A stretch of DNA of 33,096 nucleotides from an uncultured Flavobacteriales bacterium (lineage in GTDB: Bacteria; Bacteroidota; Bacteroidia; Flavobacteriales_E; Vicingaceae), in assembly GCA_905479995.1 (NCBI GenBank), contig CAJQON010000016.1, forward strand, positions 1 to 33,096, given 5' to 3'. Of this stretch, positions 461-17,006 are shown one piece after another (within the stretch, counting starts at the first letter, position 1; each line of letters begins with the position of its first letter). Below the pieces are notes generated by a model. That model was given only the letters and a program-made list of their open reading frames with translations. It made no database searches and was not told the DNA's origin. Position numbers and translations under genes: made by a program.

Positions 461-1192
461 ATGTCGGATAGCATAGTTATCATACCAACTTACAACGAGA
501 AAGAGAACCTCGAAAAAATGGTGCGAAAAGTTTTTTCGTTGTCGCAGTCTTTTCATGTTTTAATAGTAGATGACGGTTCTCCTGATGGAACTGGAGCAAT
601 TGTGAAAGAGTTGCAAAAAGAATTCTCTGGGCAACTACATTTAGAAGAAAGAAAGGGGAAGTTAGGATTGGGAACAGCTTATATTCATGGATTTAAATGG
701 GCGTTAAAAAGAGATTATCAATTTATTTTTGAAATGGATTGTGATTTTTCGCACAACCCTGAAGATTTAATGCAATTGTACAATGCTTGTACGAAGAATG
801 GTGGAGATTTATCCATTGGTTCACGATACATTAAAGGTGTAAATGTGGTGAATTGGCCAATGGGGCGTGTGCTCATGTCTTATTATGCATCAGCTTATGT
901 TCGTTTTATAACGGGTATGTCTATACGAGATACAACTTCCGGGTTTAAATGTTATACCAGAAAAGTGTTGGAAACAATAGATTTAGATAAGATTACATTT
1001 AAAGGCTACGCTTTTCAAATTGAAATGAAATTTAAAGCGTTTAAATATGGTTTCAACATTATTGAAGTCCCTATTATTTTTACCGATAGGCAAGAAGGGA
1101 CATCTAAGATGAGTGGTGGAATATTTAAAGAAGCTGTATTTGGAGTAATTCAAATGAAAATGAAAAGTTGGTTTGTGAAGTATCAGCAATAA
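461..1192 (+). CDS. Polyprenol-phosphate mannose synthase (DPM1-like, GT2)
   Basis: A cytoplasmic GT2 glycosyltransferase of 243 residues, expected to move mannose from GDP-mannose to a polyprenyl phosphate carrier. N-terminal IIPTYNE (residues 7-13), the nucleotide-binding DDGSPDGT (37-44), EMDCDFSHNP (91-100, containing the DxD metal site) and GSRYIKG are all present and match the dolichol-phosphate mannosyltransferase branch. No C-terminal membrane segment is visible, so it is the single-domain form. The ATG start directly precedes the conserved N-terminus. The gene is followed by the repeat-rich stretch 1211-1897 and then pyrC on the same strand; the two genes may once have been adjacent. 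The actual acceptor lipid and sugar cannot be read from sequence. Confidence 0.9.
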   Translation: MSDSIVIIPTYNEKENLEKMVRKVFSLSQSFHVLIVDDGSPDGTGAIVKELQKEFSGQLHLEERKGKLGLGTAYIHGFKWALKRDYQFIFEMDCDFSHNPEDLMQLYNACTKNGGDLSIGSRYIKGVNVVNWPMGRVLMSYYASAYVRFITGMSIRDTTSGFKCYTRKVLETIDLDKITFKGYAFQIEMKFKAFKYGFNIIEVPIIFTDRQEGTSKMSGGIFKEAVFGVIQMKMKSWFVKYQQ

Positions 1193-1210
1193 TTCTGAAT
1201 TTTAATTAAT

Positions 1211-1272
1211 TGTCATTCTGAGTAAAATTTTGTCCGAACGTTTGTTTGGAAACAAAATGACACGAAGAATCT
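1211..1272 (+). repeat. Palindromic repeat A (62 bp, A-type core)
   Basis: Starts TGTCATTCTGA and ends GAAGAATCT. The core forms a hairpin with arms ATTTTGT (1227-1233) and ACAAAAT (1252-1258), extended by CC (1234-1235) opposite GG (1248-1249). The first seven bases, TGTCATT, can also pair with AATGACA at 1256-1262. It has the same outer ends as repeats B, D and E and nearly the same core as C and E. Confidence 0.85.
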
Positions 1273-1352
1273 AAAAAACTGTTAGTGAAGTATTTTATTT
1301 TGACTACCTCTAATAGAGTTGCATTGTCTGTTGGCGTTATTAATTTAAATTT

Positions 1353-1376
1353 ATGCATGAAGTAGTTAACGATTAG
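1353..1376 (+). pseudogene. Remnant of a GIY-YIG gene (in-frame internal deletion, M-H-E-V-V-N-D-stop)
   Basis: Eight codons keep the first three residues and the last residues of the GIY-YIG protein encoded at 1544-1837, with about 89 codons missing between. The stop codon TAG overlaps the first bases of repeat B, exactly as the stop of the intact gene overlaps repeat D. It is too short to make a nuclease. The in-frame junction could be chance (1 in 3). Confidence 0.6.
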
Positions 1377-1436
1377 ATTCTTCATGTTGTTTTATGGAAA
1401 AGCTGAAGCTTTGATAAAACTGCGTTCAGAATGACA
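1375..1436 (-). repeat. Palindromic repeat B (62 bp, B-type core, inverted)
   Basis: On the minus strand it starts TGTCATTCTGA and ends GAAGAATCT, like repeat A, but the core differs. Arms GTTTTAT (1389-1395) and ATAAAAC (1414-1420) enclose AAAGCT (1399-1404) and AGCTTT (1407-1412). By eye it matches repeat D at about 54 of 62 positions. Confidence 0.85.
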
Positions 1437-1455
1437 TAGAGGCTCTAAATTAGCC

Positions 1456-1519
1456 TATTATTTTAAGTGAAATTTTGTTCGAACGTTTGTTTGCAAAAAC
1501 AAAATGACACGAATAAAAA
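1456..1519 (+). repeat. Palindromic repeat C (about 64 bp, decayed A-type copy)
   Basis: The core closely matches repeat A (shared CGAACGTTTGTTTG and ACAAAATGACACGAA). The outer end has become TATTATTTTA, differing from TGTCATTCTG only by transitions, and the inner end has lost AGAATCT. Two extra A residues lie in the loop-side arm. It is the left end of the unit that carries the GIY-YIG gene. Confidence 0.7.
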
Positions 1520-1543
1520 AAGTTCGTTAATAATCTAACTCTC

Positions 1544-1837
1544 ATGCATGAATATTACGTTTACATTTTAACCAACTACAATAAAACAGTATTGTATACT
1601 GGTGTAACTAATGATTTGAGCAGAAGGTTGTTTGAACATGAGAACAGTGTGCAATTAAAATCTTTTACAACTAAATACAAGTGTTTCTATTTAATTTATT
1701 GGGATAAGTTTAACTTTGTGCAACAAGCCATTGATCGAGAGAAACAAATTAAAGGTTGGACAAGAGCTAAAAAAGAAAAACTGATCAATGAATTTAATCC
1801 AGGATGGGAATTTTTGAATAAAGTGGTTAATGAATAG
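1544..1837 (+). CDS. Small single-domain GIY-YIG nuclease (YhbQ/UPF0213-like)
   Basis: A 97-residue protein consisting almost only of a GIY-YIG domain. The first motif is YVYIL (residues 5-9), the second YTG (18-20), followed by the conserved Arg region LSRRLFEH (25-32) and the candidate catalytic Glu in REKQIKGW (65-72). GIY-YIG enzymes cut DNA in repair, restriction, homing and transposition; the role of the small stand-alone forms is poorly understood. Codon use looks ordinary and the frame is intact, so it is probably expressed. It is bracketed by inverted palindromic repeats. Its TAG stop (1835-1837) uses the first two bases of repeat D. It is not UvrC, which is far longer. A role in moving the flanking repeats is possible but unproven. 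Confidence 0.88.
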   Translation: MHEYYVYILTNYNKTVLYTGVTNDLSRRLFEHENSVQLKSFTTKYKCFYLIYWDKFNFVQQAIDREKQIKGWTRAKKEKLINEFNPGWEFLNKVVNE

Positions 1838-1897
1838 ATTCTTCACGTTGTTTTATAAGAAAGCTAAAGCTTTACTAAAACTTCGTTCAGAATGACA
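1836..1897 (-). repeat. Palindromic repeat D (62 bp, B-type core, inverted)
   Basis: Ends with TCAGAATGACA on the plus strand, the inverse of the outer end of repeat A. The core has GTTTTAT (1850-1856) against TAAAAC (1876-1881) and AAAGCT (1860-1865) against AGCTTT (1868-1873). It supplies the last two bases of the GIY-YIG stop codon and ends 11 bp before the pyrC ATG, so it lies in the probable pyrC leader. Confidence 0.85.
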
Positions 1898-1908
1898 ACA
1901 AAAAAGAA

Positions 1909-3255
1909 ATGAAAACATTAATAAAGAACGCACAAATAGTTAACGAAGGTCAAATTACAAAAGGCCATGTATTAATTGAAGGAGAAAAAATTGCAGAGGT
2001 GTTGGCAATGGATTTTGATACTTCAGCACTTGAAGAAAGTTGCGAAGTAGTTGACGTTAACAACAATTATTTAATGCCTGGAGTGATCGATGATCAATGT
2101 CATTTTAGAGAACCAGGTTTAACCCATAAAGCAAACATTCATACCGAATCTCGAGCCGCAGTTGCTGGTGGAACAACTTCCTTTATGGAAATGCCTAACA
2201 CGGTTCCAAATACCTTAACACAAGAGTTGTTGCAAGATAAATACGACATCGGAGCAGCAACATCATTGGCGAATTATTCATTTTACATGGGTGCTTCTAA
2301 TGATAATATTGAAGAAGTATTGAAAACAGACCCCAAAACGGTTTGTGGCGTAAAGGTGTTTATGGGATCATCTACTGGCAATATGTTGGTAGACAACAAA
2401 GAAACATTGGAAGAATTGTTTTCAAAATGTAAATTATTAATTGCAGCACATTGTGAAGATGAAACAACCATTCGAGCGAATATGGCAGCCTATAAAGAAA
2501 AGTATGGCGAAGATGTGCCCATAGAATGTCATCCAGAAATACGTAGCGAAGAAGCGTGTTACTTGTCTTCATCTTTAGCCATAGAATTGGCAAAGAAACA
2601 CAATACACGATTCCATTTATTTCACTTATCTACTGCTAAAGAAATTGGCTTGCTAGAAAACAAAACACCTTTGCGAGAAAAACGTATTACAGCTGAAGCC
2701 TGTATTCATCACATGTGGTTTTCGGAAGAAGATTATAAGACCAAAGGAGCTTTTATAAAGTGGAATCCGGCAGTGAAAAAAGCAAGCGATAGAGATGCTA
2801 TTTTGCAAGGTGTTTTAGATAATTACATTGATGTAATTGCAACCGATCATGCTCCGCATACTGTTGATGAAAAGCTAAATACCTACTTTAATTCAGCTTC
2901 TGGCGGACCAATGGTTCAGCATGCTTTAGTGGCCATGTTAGAACATTACCATAACGGCAAAATTAGCTTGGGGCGTATTGTAGAAAAGATGAGTCACGCT
3001 GTGGCAGATTGTTTTAGAATTGAAGATAGAGGTTTTATAAAAGCCGGTCAATTTGCCGATTTGGTTGTGGTAGACATTGATAACCCTTGGACAGTAGAAA
3101 AAGAAAATTTACTGTATAAATGTGGTTGGTCTCCAATGGAAGGTTATACTTTTAAATCTAAAGTGATGCAAACTTTTGTGAACGGACATTTGGTTTACAA
3201 TTTGGGTGAGCTAGATGAGGATTATAGAGGGCAACGAATGACTTTTGATCATTAA
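1909..3255 (+). CDS. pyrC: Dihydroorotase
   Basis: A 448-residue amidohydrolase that closes carbamoyl-aspartate to dihydroorotate in pyrimidine synthesis. Diagnostic segments are IDDQCHFREPGLTH (60-73), MPNTVPNT, CGVKVFMGSSTGNM (146-159, with K149 as the probable carboxylated metal-bridging Lys), AAHCED (H181), HLFHLST (H239) and ATDHAPHT (D313). The usual HxH metal motif in strand 1 reads Gln-Cys-His here (Q63, H65). From memory a Gln at this place is common in Bacteroidota dihydroorotases, so the enzyme is still expected to be active. The ATG lies 11 bp after repeat D, so any promoter is inside or upstream of the repeat units. It ends convergently with the minus-strand barrel gene; the stop codons overlap by 4 bp. 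Confidence 0.93.
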   Translation: MKTLIKNAQIVNEGQITKGHVLIEGEKIAEVLAMDFDTSALEESCEVVDVNNNYLMPGVIDDQCHFREPGLTHKANIHTESRAAVAGGTTSFMEMPNTVPNTLTQELLQDKYDIGAATSLANYSFYMGASNDNIEEVLKTDPKTVCGVKVFMGSSTGNMLVDNKETLEELFSKCKLLIAAHCEDETTIRANMAAYKEKYGEDVPIECHPEIRSEEACYLSSSLAIELAKKHNTRFHLFHLSTAKEIGLLENKTPLREKRITAEACIHHMWFSEEDYKTKGAFIKWNPAVKKASDRDAILQGVLDNYIDVIATDHAPHTVDEKLNTYFNSASGGPMVQHALVAMLEHYHNGKISLGRIVEKMSHAVADCFRIEDRGFIKAGQFADLVVVDIDNPWTVEKENLLYKCGWSPMEGYTFKSKVMQTFVNGHLVYNLGELDEDYRGQRMTFDH

Positions 3256-16685: not shown

Positions 16686-16945
16686 GTTTTTTTTGATTTT
16701 ATTTTGTCATACTCGTTTGCTTCCCAGTTTTTGAGTGGTGACTGGTATCCACCTGCTTTATTAGTTTTAATAGTTTATTTGCTGCTAATTGACAGTGATC
16801 TAAGCAATTTGCATATACAATGTTCGTTCAAAAGAAGCTTTTAGTCAAAGATTTTGATTGCACAAATTTTGCACAAAAGACATTTTTGTGTTAAAAAAAT
16901 AATGTTTTTATCAGATAAGAACTAGGTTCGGTGCTAGTGGGTTTT
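16686..16945. other. Non-coding gap upstream of the DUF805 gene
   Basis: About 260 bp with no credible gene on either strand. The only structure seen is a hairpin CACAAAA (16872-16878) / TTTTGTG (16884-16890) with a 5-base loop. The DUF805 promoter should lie in its left part. Confidence 0.5.
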
Positions 16946-17006
16946 AGATTCTTCTTGTCATTTTGTTTCCAAACAAAAGTTGGACAAAATTCCATTCAGA
17001 ATGACA
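16946..17006 (-). repeat. Solo palindromic repeat E (61 bp, A-type core)
   Basis: On the minus strand it starts TGTCATTCTGA and ends GAAGAATCT. The core has ATTTTGTCC against GGAAACAAAAT, nearly identical to repeat A 15 kb away. There is no partner repeat and no GIY-YIG gene beside it. It lies 84 bp past the stop of the minus-strand 72-residue gene. Confidence 0.85.

Follow-up and report, generated by a model that had tools for sequence, protein, structure and literature searches.

Repetitive extragenic palindromes (REPs) are short tagged hairpins, and two of their kinds come closest to the arrangement studied here. Passages of the article by Di Nocera, De Gregorio and Rocco (2013, PMC3733652) tie GTAG REPs to the RAYT tyrosine transposases and define CGTC REPs separately: in these the tag is often TGTC or CCTC, the stems are 8-9 bp long and start with AT, head-to-head (HH) pairs prevail, and four families have been published; Neisseria dRS3 and Rickettsia RPE-4/RPE-6 are included. 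The same passages state that CGTC REPs "apparently lack a dedicated transposase", that flanking transposase genes were sought with only few fortuitous associations as a result, and that the mobilising enzyme perhaps vanished early or a broad transposase spectrum serves (PMC3733652). In this work we describe a locus of an uncultured Flavobacteriales bacterium (assembly GCA_905479995.1, contig CAJQON010000016.1), in which a small gene for a GIY-YIG nuclease is located between inverted palindromes tagged with TGTC. It lies in a stretch of 33,096 nt, called the window, to which all coordinates refer; the genome measures 3.10 Mb. The unit is probably a minimal mobile element of ~0.4 kb, a REP-associated GIY-YIG nuclease between cognate outward-tagged palindromes that moves itself and gene-less repeats.

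The window repeat shares with CGTC REPs the unpaired CGTC/TGTC tag, the AT at the start of the stem, the dispersed copies and the inverted pairs, and it differs from them in the GIY-YIG gene found between the repeats and in its length (62-64 nt, with an inner hairpin). It is TGTC-tagged and outside the four published CGTC families, and it is called CGTC-like only, because its 5-bp outer stem and inner hairpin differ from a stem of 8-9 bp. The RAYT/TnpA-REP system (REPtron, REPIN) also has a nuclease gene flanked by inverted tagged palindromes, dispersed gene-less copies and a repeat matched to the protein. However, the enzyme here is a GIY-YIG nuclease instead of an HuH tyrosine (Y1) nuclease, the tag is CGTC/TGTC instead of GTAG, and RAYT proteins are larger than the 97-aa GIY-YIG protein. 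The window unit works like a RAYT/REPtron but is not a member, because the enzyme is unrelated. Slx1, the structure-selective endonuclease of Slx1-Slx4, aligns with the predicted fold of the nuclease (E above 0.001), although the protein described here has 97 aa, no partner protein or second domain, and is carried on a probably mobile unit. UPF0213 proteins (1zg2, 1ywl) are the nearest solved structures by sequence, and 1zg2 is the nearest fold, but outward palindromes at both ends were found at none of the five genes of the UPF0213-like clade. The GIY-YIG homing endonucleases belong to the same catalytic domain family and are also nuclease genes that spread through DNA sites; in contrast, the window gene has palindromic termini, lies between two whole genes and scores below the cut-off for intron enzymes. 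Terminal inverted repeats are present as in insertion sequences and miniature inverted-repeat transposable elements (MITEs). Since no mobile-element family compared fits on the enzyme, though the layout is RAYT-like, the kind of element was rated as new. A link of GIY-YIG proteins to tagged palindromes was not found among the matches listed from open-licence PMC literature, a search with subscription journals and bioRxiv outside its range.

Results

Two tandem units occupy positions 1211-1897 of the window (unit 1, 1211-1436; unit 2, 1456-1897), and their features are the following:

1211..1274, plus strand: left-hand REP of unit 1, an intact tagged palindrome with an unpaired TGTC, an outer stem (ATTCT/AGAAT) and an inner hairpin (fold, alignment, covariation; model E 3.5e-13)
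1275..1372, plus strand: GIY-YIG gene relic that has lost a large internal part and contains no intact open reading frame (ORF) (alignment of unit 1 with unit 2)
1373..1436, minus strand: right-hand REP of unit 1, an intact tagged palindrome (fold, alignment; model E 3.2e-13)
1437..1455, no strand: spacer of 19 bp between the units (sequence)
about 1456..1519, plus strand: left-hand palindrome of unit 2, degenerate, with mutations in its tag and outer arm
1544..1837, plus strand: GIY-YIG nuclease gene, 97 aa, single domain, stop included (PF01541, conservation, AlphaFold2 model)
1834..1897, minus strand: intact tagged palindrome (REP), right end of unit 2, overlapping the stop codon of the gene (model E 5.0e-14)

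A preliminary description of this DNA had read the order repeat (plus), leader, ORF, repeat (minus) twice, with unlike ends A and B. The layout, the coordinates and the 19-bp gap are real, but unit 1 has no intact ORF and the left repeat of unit 2 is degenerate. The ends are not unlike: A and B are variants of one palindrome family, and all three intact copies match one covariance model. The exact 11-bp inverted repeat reported at the outer ends of unit 1 (1211-1221 and 1426-1436) is there, and a third copy ends unit 2 (1887-1897). When aligned with unit 2, unit 1 retains remnants of both ends of the GIY-YIG gene: one matches the 3' end, and the other resembles the beginning more weakly. A direct repeat (1348-1436 versus 1809-1897, 84%) ties the 3' part of unit 1 to unit 2. 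Judged by this alignment, unit 1 is an internal-deletion derivative of unit 2. The window locus may no longer move, because the left repeat beside the intact gene is worn and the tandem copy carries a deletion.

The 11-bp end was found, with at most one mismatch, at four sites in the window (shuffled mean 0.70; 1 of 100 shuffles reached four), and TGTCATTCTGA occurs 20 times in the genome against 2 for its reversed control. A covariance model of the 64-nt repeat, built from the three intact window copies and eight others of the same genome, detected at least 22 copies in this genome; all counts by this model are lower bounds, with 150 candidates per genome scored. Eleven model copies have TGTCATTCTGA and GAAGAATCT or GATGAATCT in common. 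Among 11 aligned copies of this genome, two-sided changes affected 9 of 17 stem pairs (a value reached by 1 of 500 shuffles) and 25 cells (0 of 500); these copies were picked by their identical first 11 bases, so the tag and outer arm are uninformative there and the changes counted are those of the inner stems. In the minimum-energy folds of the three intact window repeats the TGTC is unpaired and ATTCT pairs with AGAAT, so that the stem starts with complementary AT as in CGTC-tagged REPs. The repeat consists of a 5-bp outer stem and a separate inner hairpin, and it does not have a stem of 8-9 bp with a loop of 4-5 nt. Its tail is CTA, and other members have CTC, CTT and CCA among others (the tail of CGTC REPs is mostly CCA). 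The single-strand fold energies of the window repeats were unconvincing (z -0.95 to -2.66), and a comparison of positions 1000-2200 with Rfam gave no match near the gathering score.

The protein of unit 2 is, as had been described, a GIY-YIG nuclease. It matches PF01541 with 55.1 bits (cut-off 22.6), and GIY-YIG is its sole Pfam match. In 51 sequences Y7, Y18, G20, H32 and E66 are invariant and R28 is present at >=90%. Tyrosine, arginine and glutamate have catalytic roles in GIY-YIG enzymes, and the conservation of Y7, Y18, R28 and E66 would fit an active enzyme. The AlphaFold2 model (pLDDT 93.3, pTM 0.85) had the UPF0213 structure 1zg2 as its top Foldseek match (E 1.7e-4), the sole one at E <= 0.001, followed by Slx1 chains (probability 0.98-1.00, E 0.012-0.11, TM by query length 0.49-0.60) and then by UvrC domains. 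The solved structures nearest in sequence were also of UPF0213, 1zg2 (E 5e-5) and 1ywl (E 2e-4), a weak match, and a tree of 130 proteins places the UPF0213-like rows in a clade of their own. Slx1 processes branched DNA (structure titles), an activity that would suit a substrate in hairpin or cruciform form. The group I intron endonuclease model TIGR01453 scored 19.9 bits, below its cut-off of 56.05, and a phage homing endonuclease family gave a weak match (E 0.0051). PADLOC gave no match.

An alignment of eleven proteins was scanned against species genomes, which yielded at least 577 relatives, and the 80 loci with the most similar proteins were retained. Together with 13 records, picked for organism spread from 33 in a plasmid collection, they form a wide set of 93 loci. 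An outward tagged palindrome was located within 200 bp of the gene at 81 of the 93 loci, and at both ends at 45. The corresponding numbers for the neighbour ORFs of the same set were 21 and 1 of 181 (both ends, Fisher p = 3.1e-24), while two control tags were found at 5 and 6 loci on any side and at 0 and 1 on both. The density of palindromes peaks at 0-200 bp, with 0.86 per gene upstream on the plus strand and 0.89 downstream on the minus strand, against 0.39 and 0.44 for the inward orientation; beyond 600 bp it is 0.00-0.13 per 200-bp bin, and the reversed tag stays at 0.00-0.11 in every bin. Each of the 19 lineages, taken from record titles, includes at least one locus with an outward palindrome (5 loci were unassigned), and they span Bacteroidota to Cyanobacteriota, Omnitrophota, Chloroflexota and Pseudomonadota. 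Palindromes of the CGTC kind are present at a GIY-YIG gene in Neisseria gonorrhoeae, Azospirillum lipoferum, Novosphingobium aromaticivorans and Sinorhizobium meliloti, which are all mentioned in the passages of PMC3733652. Those of Novosphingobium read CGTCGCC and escape the detector, and the N. gonorrhoeae homologue has palindromes on both sides by eye and on one side, outward, by the detector. Palindrome forms shorter than that of the window flank other GIY-YIG genes. The idea of a mobile element composed of a GIY-YIG gene and palindromes, raised for the window, is supported, and the phenomenon reaches far beyond this genome; recognition and spreading of the palindromes by the protein would be its mechanism.

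The genome of the window has six PF01541 matches. One of them belongs to a frame of 614 aa, taken to be UvrC, and no tagged flanking repeat was found there. Four of the other five, small genes of which one is a fragment, lie between inverted tagged palindromes whose sequences differ: L001 (by the detector), L003 and L006 (by eye) and the window gene, whose immediate left repeat is worn. The remaining one, L002 (G000:C3:52568-52792), has a pair of direct repeats without a tag.

Relatives were collected as PF01541 matches in 31 genomes, picked regardless of their flanks. They comprised 29 loci and 80 further regions (some of them uvrC controls), with 9 weak rows, of frames <350 aa, omitted; together with 29 phylum-wide loci and the own genome they amounted to 136 small genes. 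The test of own flanks went from 138 genes to 136 (2 re-fetched copies out) and to 128 (8 with a flank <200 nt out), and 4 of 17 uvrC loci were left out. In these comparisons "uvrC" stands for PF01541 frames of about 600 aa, named by length, and neighbour ORFs are mechanical calls, not curated genes. The tag detector and any-criterion counts exclude genes with a flank <100 nt, and genes within 100 bp of a tRNA gene were kept apart in the looser-detector, density, similarity and any-criterion counts. Inverted repeats between the own flanks (score >=16) were present at 43 of 128 genes, 5 of 310 neighbours (p = 1.6e-20 for genes versus neighbours), 0 of 13 uvrC loci and 23 of 2,919 mismatched flank pairs. 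The respective values for direct repeats (score >=20), a count that takes in tandem copies and tRNA pieces, were 68/128, 5/310, 0/13 and 10/2,919. Exact tagged palindromes in either orientation lay on both sides of 24 of 98 genes of relatives, 3 of 310 neighbours, 0 of 13 uvrC loci and 0 of 98 reversed flanks; with 6-bp arms the genes numbered 17/98 on any side and 9/98 on both, and the neighbours 23/310 and 0/310. At the 82 non-tRNA genes of relatives the outward density was 0.30 upstream and 0.47 downstream, with 0.19 and 0.26 inward. When a tagged palindrome or a strong repeat between own flanks was counted, 59 of 79 non-tRNA genes of relatives were positive versus 44 of 310 neighbours. The expectation that most small GIY-YIG genes are flanked in this way was borne out in both collections, with exceptions.

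Other tags behaved differently. GTAG palindromes showed no excess on both sides (2/98 genes; shuffled 7/980; reversed 5/98). At the loosest score, both-sided CGAC/TGAC was found at 10/79 genes versus 8/310 neighbours, CCTC/TCTC at 8/79 versus 11/310 neighbours and 4/13 uvrC loci, and CGTG/TGTG at 0/79 versus 5/310; with stricter scores the three had 0/79, 1/79 and 0/79 versus 8/79 for CGTC/TGTC. A looser stem-score detector was also tried (24/79 both-sided versus 7/310 neighbours and 1/13 uvrC) and rejected, with no gain over the exact one.

Occupied and unoccupied sites were compared. The insertion site of the window is defined by the genes on either side, whose names were read from their translations:

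461..1192, plus strand: glycosyltransferase gene, left neighbour
1909..3255, plus strand: dihydroorotase gene, right neighbour

Fifteen dihydroorotase loci were read, 9 of them with an adjoining glycosyltransferase gene, and no GIY-YIG gene was present in the stretch examined at any of the 15. Five of the 9 have gaps of 7, 10, 19, 51 and 51 bp, and the other four have gaps of 95, 107, 113 and 429 bp that hold different palindrome sequences, which in G209 and G199 resemble those flanking a GIY-YIG gene of the same genome. The gap between both genes (window 1193-1908; L258, L260-L264, L266, L267, L270) is a hot spot, with different palindromes or almost nothing.

In three aligned Sphingobium plasmids, the arrangement repeat-gene-repeat lies between fnrL and a response regulator gene. 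At the same site, TomTYG64 has a single doubly tagged palindrome that combines the left repeat's left half with the right repeat's right half. The palindrome of TomTYG74 is a slightly imperfect version, and TomTYG72 has neither form. The unit of S. meliloti Ak57, where a deleted copy lies beside a whole one as in the window, is absent from K101 (sequence examined) and, by match pattern, from C101 and M103, with flanks that are 95.5% identical; the K101 gap has about 80 bp with pieces of repeat. This comparison is based on BLAST segments, as extra repeats blur the MAFFT alignment of the unoccupied site. Relatives that lack the unit were therefore found, as had been anticipated, at the Sphingobium and Sinorhizobium sites and, with the exceptions given above, at the window site. 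The unit of Shinella (L171, 2445-2824) and that of S. meliloti (L166, 2448-2822) are 79% identical over 390 columns that begin and end at the repeats (a unit of ~375 bp), and they are located in different gene neighbourhoods. A Neorhizobium match turned out to be flanking sequence and not the unit. In the Sphingobium sp. TomTYG73 locus L280, a GIY-YIG gene has a one-base gap with respect to its relatives and no annotated feature, and it is probably a decayed copy.

The sequence of the repeat follows that of the protein. In the tree of 130 proteins, which has few columns and 29 open forks, palindromes compared by eye tend to be particular to a clade: TGTCATTCYGA and relatives near the window gene, TTGTCAGTTCGAG, CGTCATTGCGAG and others. 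Protein and repeat similarity correlated with a Spearman coefficient of 0.496 over 7,435 inter-genome pairs (permuted maximum 0.154), a test that omits short or masked proteins, 37 syntenic pairs and the 73 of 196 items for which the detector gave no outward palindrome. The left and right repeats of the same gene are 0.80 identical, and those of different genomes 0.54 (n=62). At a site shared by two genomes of one genus, both repeats are GGAACGAA in L141 and both are GGCACGAA in L152. At least 10 copies of CGTCATTGCGAG are present in 5 of 5 genomes with a gene of the clade, as delimited in the tree, and in 3 of 26 without (p = 3.3e-4), and copies of TTGTCAGTTCGAG are more numerous in the 9 genomes with a clade gene than in the 22 without (p = 6e-4). 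Fourteen of 31 genomes matched the window repeat, and the highest copy number was 73 (G205). Adjacent CGTCATTGCGAG repeats at <=150 bp, taken from three genomes (148 sites), formed 24 pairs, of which 22 were outward, 2 in the same direction and 0 inward. The pairing of gene and repeat is strong but not absolute. According to the preliminary description, repeats in genomes without the gene, never bordering it, would have told against its proposal; there are genomes with repeats but without a found cognate gene (G218, G226, G209). It had also named homologues without repeats, and the UPF0213-like clade (5 rows; the label is our own) has both-end palindromes at 0/5 and one outward palindrome at 1/5.

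Discussion

A mobile element consisting of the GIY-YIG gene and its two palindromes could work as follows. The palindromes would adopt a hairpin form where the DNA is single-stranded, or a cruciform by extrusion, the nuclease would recognise the hairpin of its own family and cut at or near the unpaired tag, and host replication and repair would copy or join the unit elsewhere. Gene-less repeats moved in trans would make up most of the dispersed copies.

Several points weigh against this reading. Recognition and cutting of the palindromes by the nuclease, movement driven by cutting, action in trans and the route of joining are steps that we infer, and the joining step would be without an enzyme, because we know of no GIY-YIG enzyme that rejoins DNA. 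The wide set was chosen by similarity to eleven proteins of the repeat-linked clade and does not represent all GIY-YIG proteins. No outward palindrome was detected at 12 of its 93 loci (L165, L172, L176, L177, L178, L183, L187, L198, L204, L205, L215, L240). Inspection of L172, L176 and L177 revealed no flanking repeat, and they were counted as misses; so were L165 and L240, in which inverted repeats are visible, because the detector requires an A after the tag and exact arms. The detector also has false positives, the 21 of 181 neighbour ORFs. In relatives, the contrast is less sharp when a tagged palindrome on any side is counted (42/98 genes, 68/310 neighbours, 2/13 uvrC loci, 12/98 reversed flanks), and 20 of 79 non-tRNA genes had no repeat by three criteria. 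A target-site duplication was not evident in the Sphingobium comparison, the sole one inspected for it. In the correlation of protein and repeat, synteny was tested only above a protein similarity of 0.35, each wide locus stands as its own genome, and the permutation ignores relatedness. Copies of CGTCATTGCGAG are found in genomes without a found cognate gene (G218, 71; G226, 33; G209, 13), G202 has 12 copies of TTGTCAGTTCGAG without a found gene, and G225, with a gene of the clade, has 0 exact copies; several genomes of relatives are 71-97% complete. Among the matches listed, a gene flanked by the window repeat occurs only in G000 and G214. Because of the repeat-bearing genomes without a found cognate gene, it can be said that repeats often outlast, or exist without, the linked gene.

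The nuclease might instead act as a free-standing homing endonuclease that targets the loop in an existing doubly tagged palindrome, with repair copying the gene-bearing allele and the repeats being old palindrome halves. This explanation overlaps the transposition of a repeat-bounded unit and differs in the route, in that the repeats themselves would not be transposed by the gene. Homing enzymes of the GIY-YIG type are known, the weak matches to the group I intron and phage homing models point to them, and the unoccupied palindrome of TomTYG64, composed of halves of both repeats, together with the slightly imperfect form of TomTYG74, would fit as the target of homing. However, a solo palindrome could equally be the product of a deletion between two repeats, TomTYG72 has no palindrome, and none is evident in the 5 of 9 window sites in relatives with only 7-51 bp. 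Homing alone also leaves unexplained the gene-less repeats and the outward orientation of adjacent pairs, and we consider it unlikely. It is less likely still, and in our view very improbable, that the gene is cargo, or an old host gene tolerating insertion beside it, at repeats moved by another enzyme. Tagged palindromes at some neighbour ORFs agree with such a passenger, as does the hot spot at the window site, where four gene-less relatives have other palindromes, but palindromes at both ends are rare at neighbours (1/181; 3/310) and absent from uvrC (0/13), the repeat sequence tracks protein similarity and the homology of units ends at the repeats. Moreover, passages of PMC3733652 report only few fortuitous transposase associations near CGTC REPs.

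A housekeeping function has a similarly low standing, and we regard it as very improbable. An Slx1-like resolvase would clear the hairpins and cruciforms of the repeats and be kept near them by regulation or linkage, with no mobility; Slx1 provides the nearest solved folds after UPF0213, and REP hairpins and cruciforms are described as stalling replication in parts of PMC3733652. Yet a genome can have up to 25 PF01541 matches, tandem copies and relics occur, related plasmids have occupied and unoccupied sites, and one unit is found at non-homologous sites, which are marks of a mobile gene. A toxin-antitoxin or defence gene with regulatory hairpins has hardly any plausibility. The Planktothrix homologue between a restriction-modification gene and drmA would agree with a defence role, but PADLOC gave no match and the annotated neighbours at the other loci examined are ordinary and differ from one another.

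A transposing REP-associated GIY-YIG unit, our preferred reading, names a candidate for the enzyme mobilising CGTC REPs, a question left in the passages of Di Nocera et al. (PMC3733652). This candidate can be tested with a protein of 97 residues and short oligonucleotides. Since the repeat sequence tracks the protein, the family constitutes a naturally occurring collection of small nucleases, each with a candidate target to match. If the reading is correct, a role is suggested for many "GIY-YIG nuclease family proteins" annotated without one, an extra nuclease chemistry is added to those of bacterial transposable elements, and there is a second independent tie of nuclease and palindrome beside RAYT/REPIN. 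On a broader proposal our opinion is evenly divided: single-domain GIY-YIG nucleases would be a separate transposase class, with chemistry unrelated to that of RAYTs, that made and spread the bacterial CGTC/TGTC palindromes (Neisseria and rhizobia included), each clade with its own hairpin and a sister clade using parts of tRNA genes. The ~0.4-kb units would then be among the smallest self-mobilising genes.

Sister clade and additional loci

A sister clade is linked to tRNA genes in place of tagged palindromes. Twenty-five small GIY-YIG genes lie no more than 100 bp from a tRNA gene, and part of a tRNA is often repeated at their opposite flank:

tRNA-linked genes: L029, L031, L039, L041, L051, L054, L078, L094, L098, L099, L102, L103, L113, L115, L127, L128, L130, L131, L137, L138, L153, L155, L157, L159, L161

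All 25 are on the strand of the tRNA, and 11 tRNA types are involved. In relatives, 19 of 101 small genes are tRNA-linked, and 15 of 343 neighbour ORFs of the same loci are within 100 bp of a tRNA gene. Tagged palindromes were found at both ends of 0/25 of these genes and at one end of 2/25. In the protein tree, 23 of 24 tRNA-linked rows group in a single clade of 43 rows, which has weak support and whose other 20 rows have no detected tRNA within 100 bp.

Tandem arrays were also observed. Eight GIY-YIG genes (L288, L290, L292, L295-L299; G053:C34:6991-9748) are spaced by 359-368 bp, with intergenic segments that look like 3' parts of tRNAs by eye, and three more (L301, L302, L305; G053:C23) by 367-368 bp. 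Several members of the L002 clade (L070, L106, L108, L111, L123) have flanking palindromes that read TTCCTGC...GCAGGAATCC or similarly and show no clear CGTC tag.

Single loci deserve mention. In Azospirillum lipoferum 4B AZO_p3 (L167, 2370-2990), a GIY-YIG gene with palindrome pairs on both sides is located between sufB and sufC, and the Planktothrix agardhii p1 homologue (L170) has a type IIL (MmeI) restriction-modification gene on one side and DISARM drmA on the other. The window repeat also occurs without a gene, as a pair with tags pointing outward, a REPIN-like form, at L023 (G000:C36:48423-48551), and as a single copy elsewhere in the window:

16944..17006, minus strand: solo copy of the window palindrome, gene-less (model E 1.1e-12)

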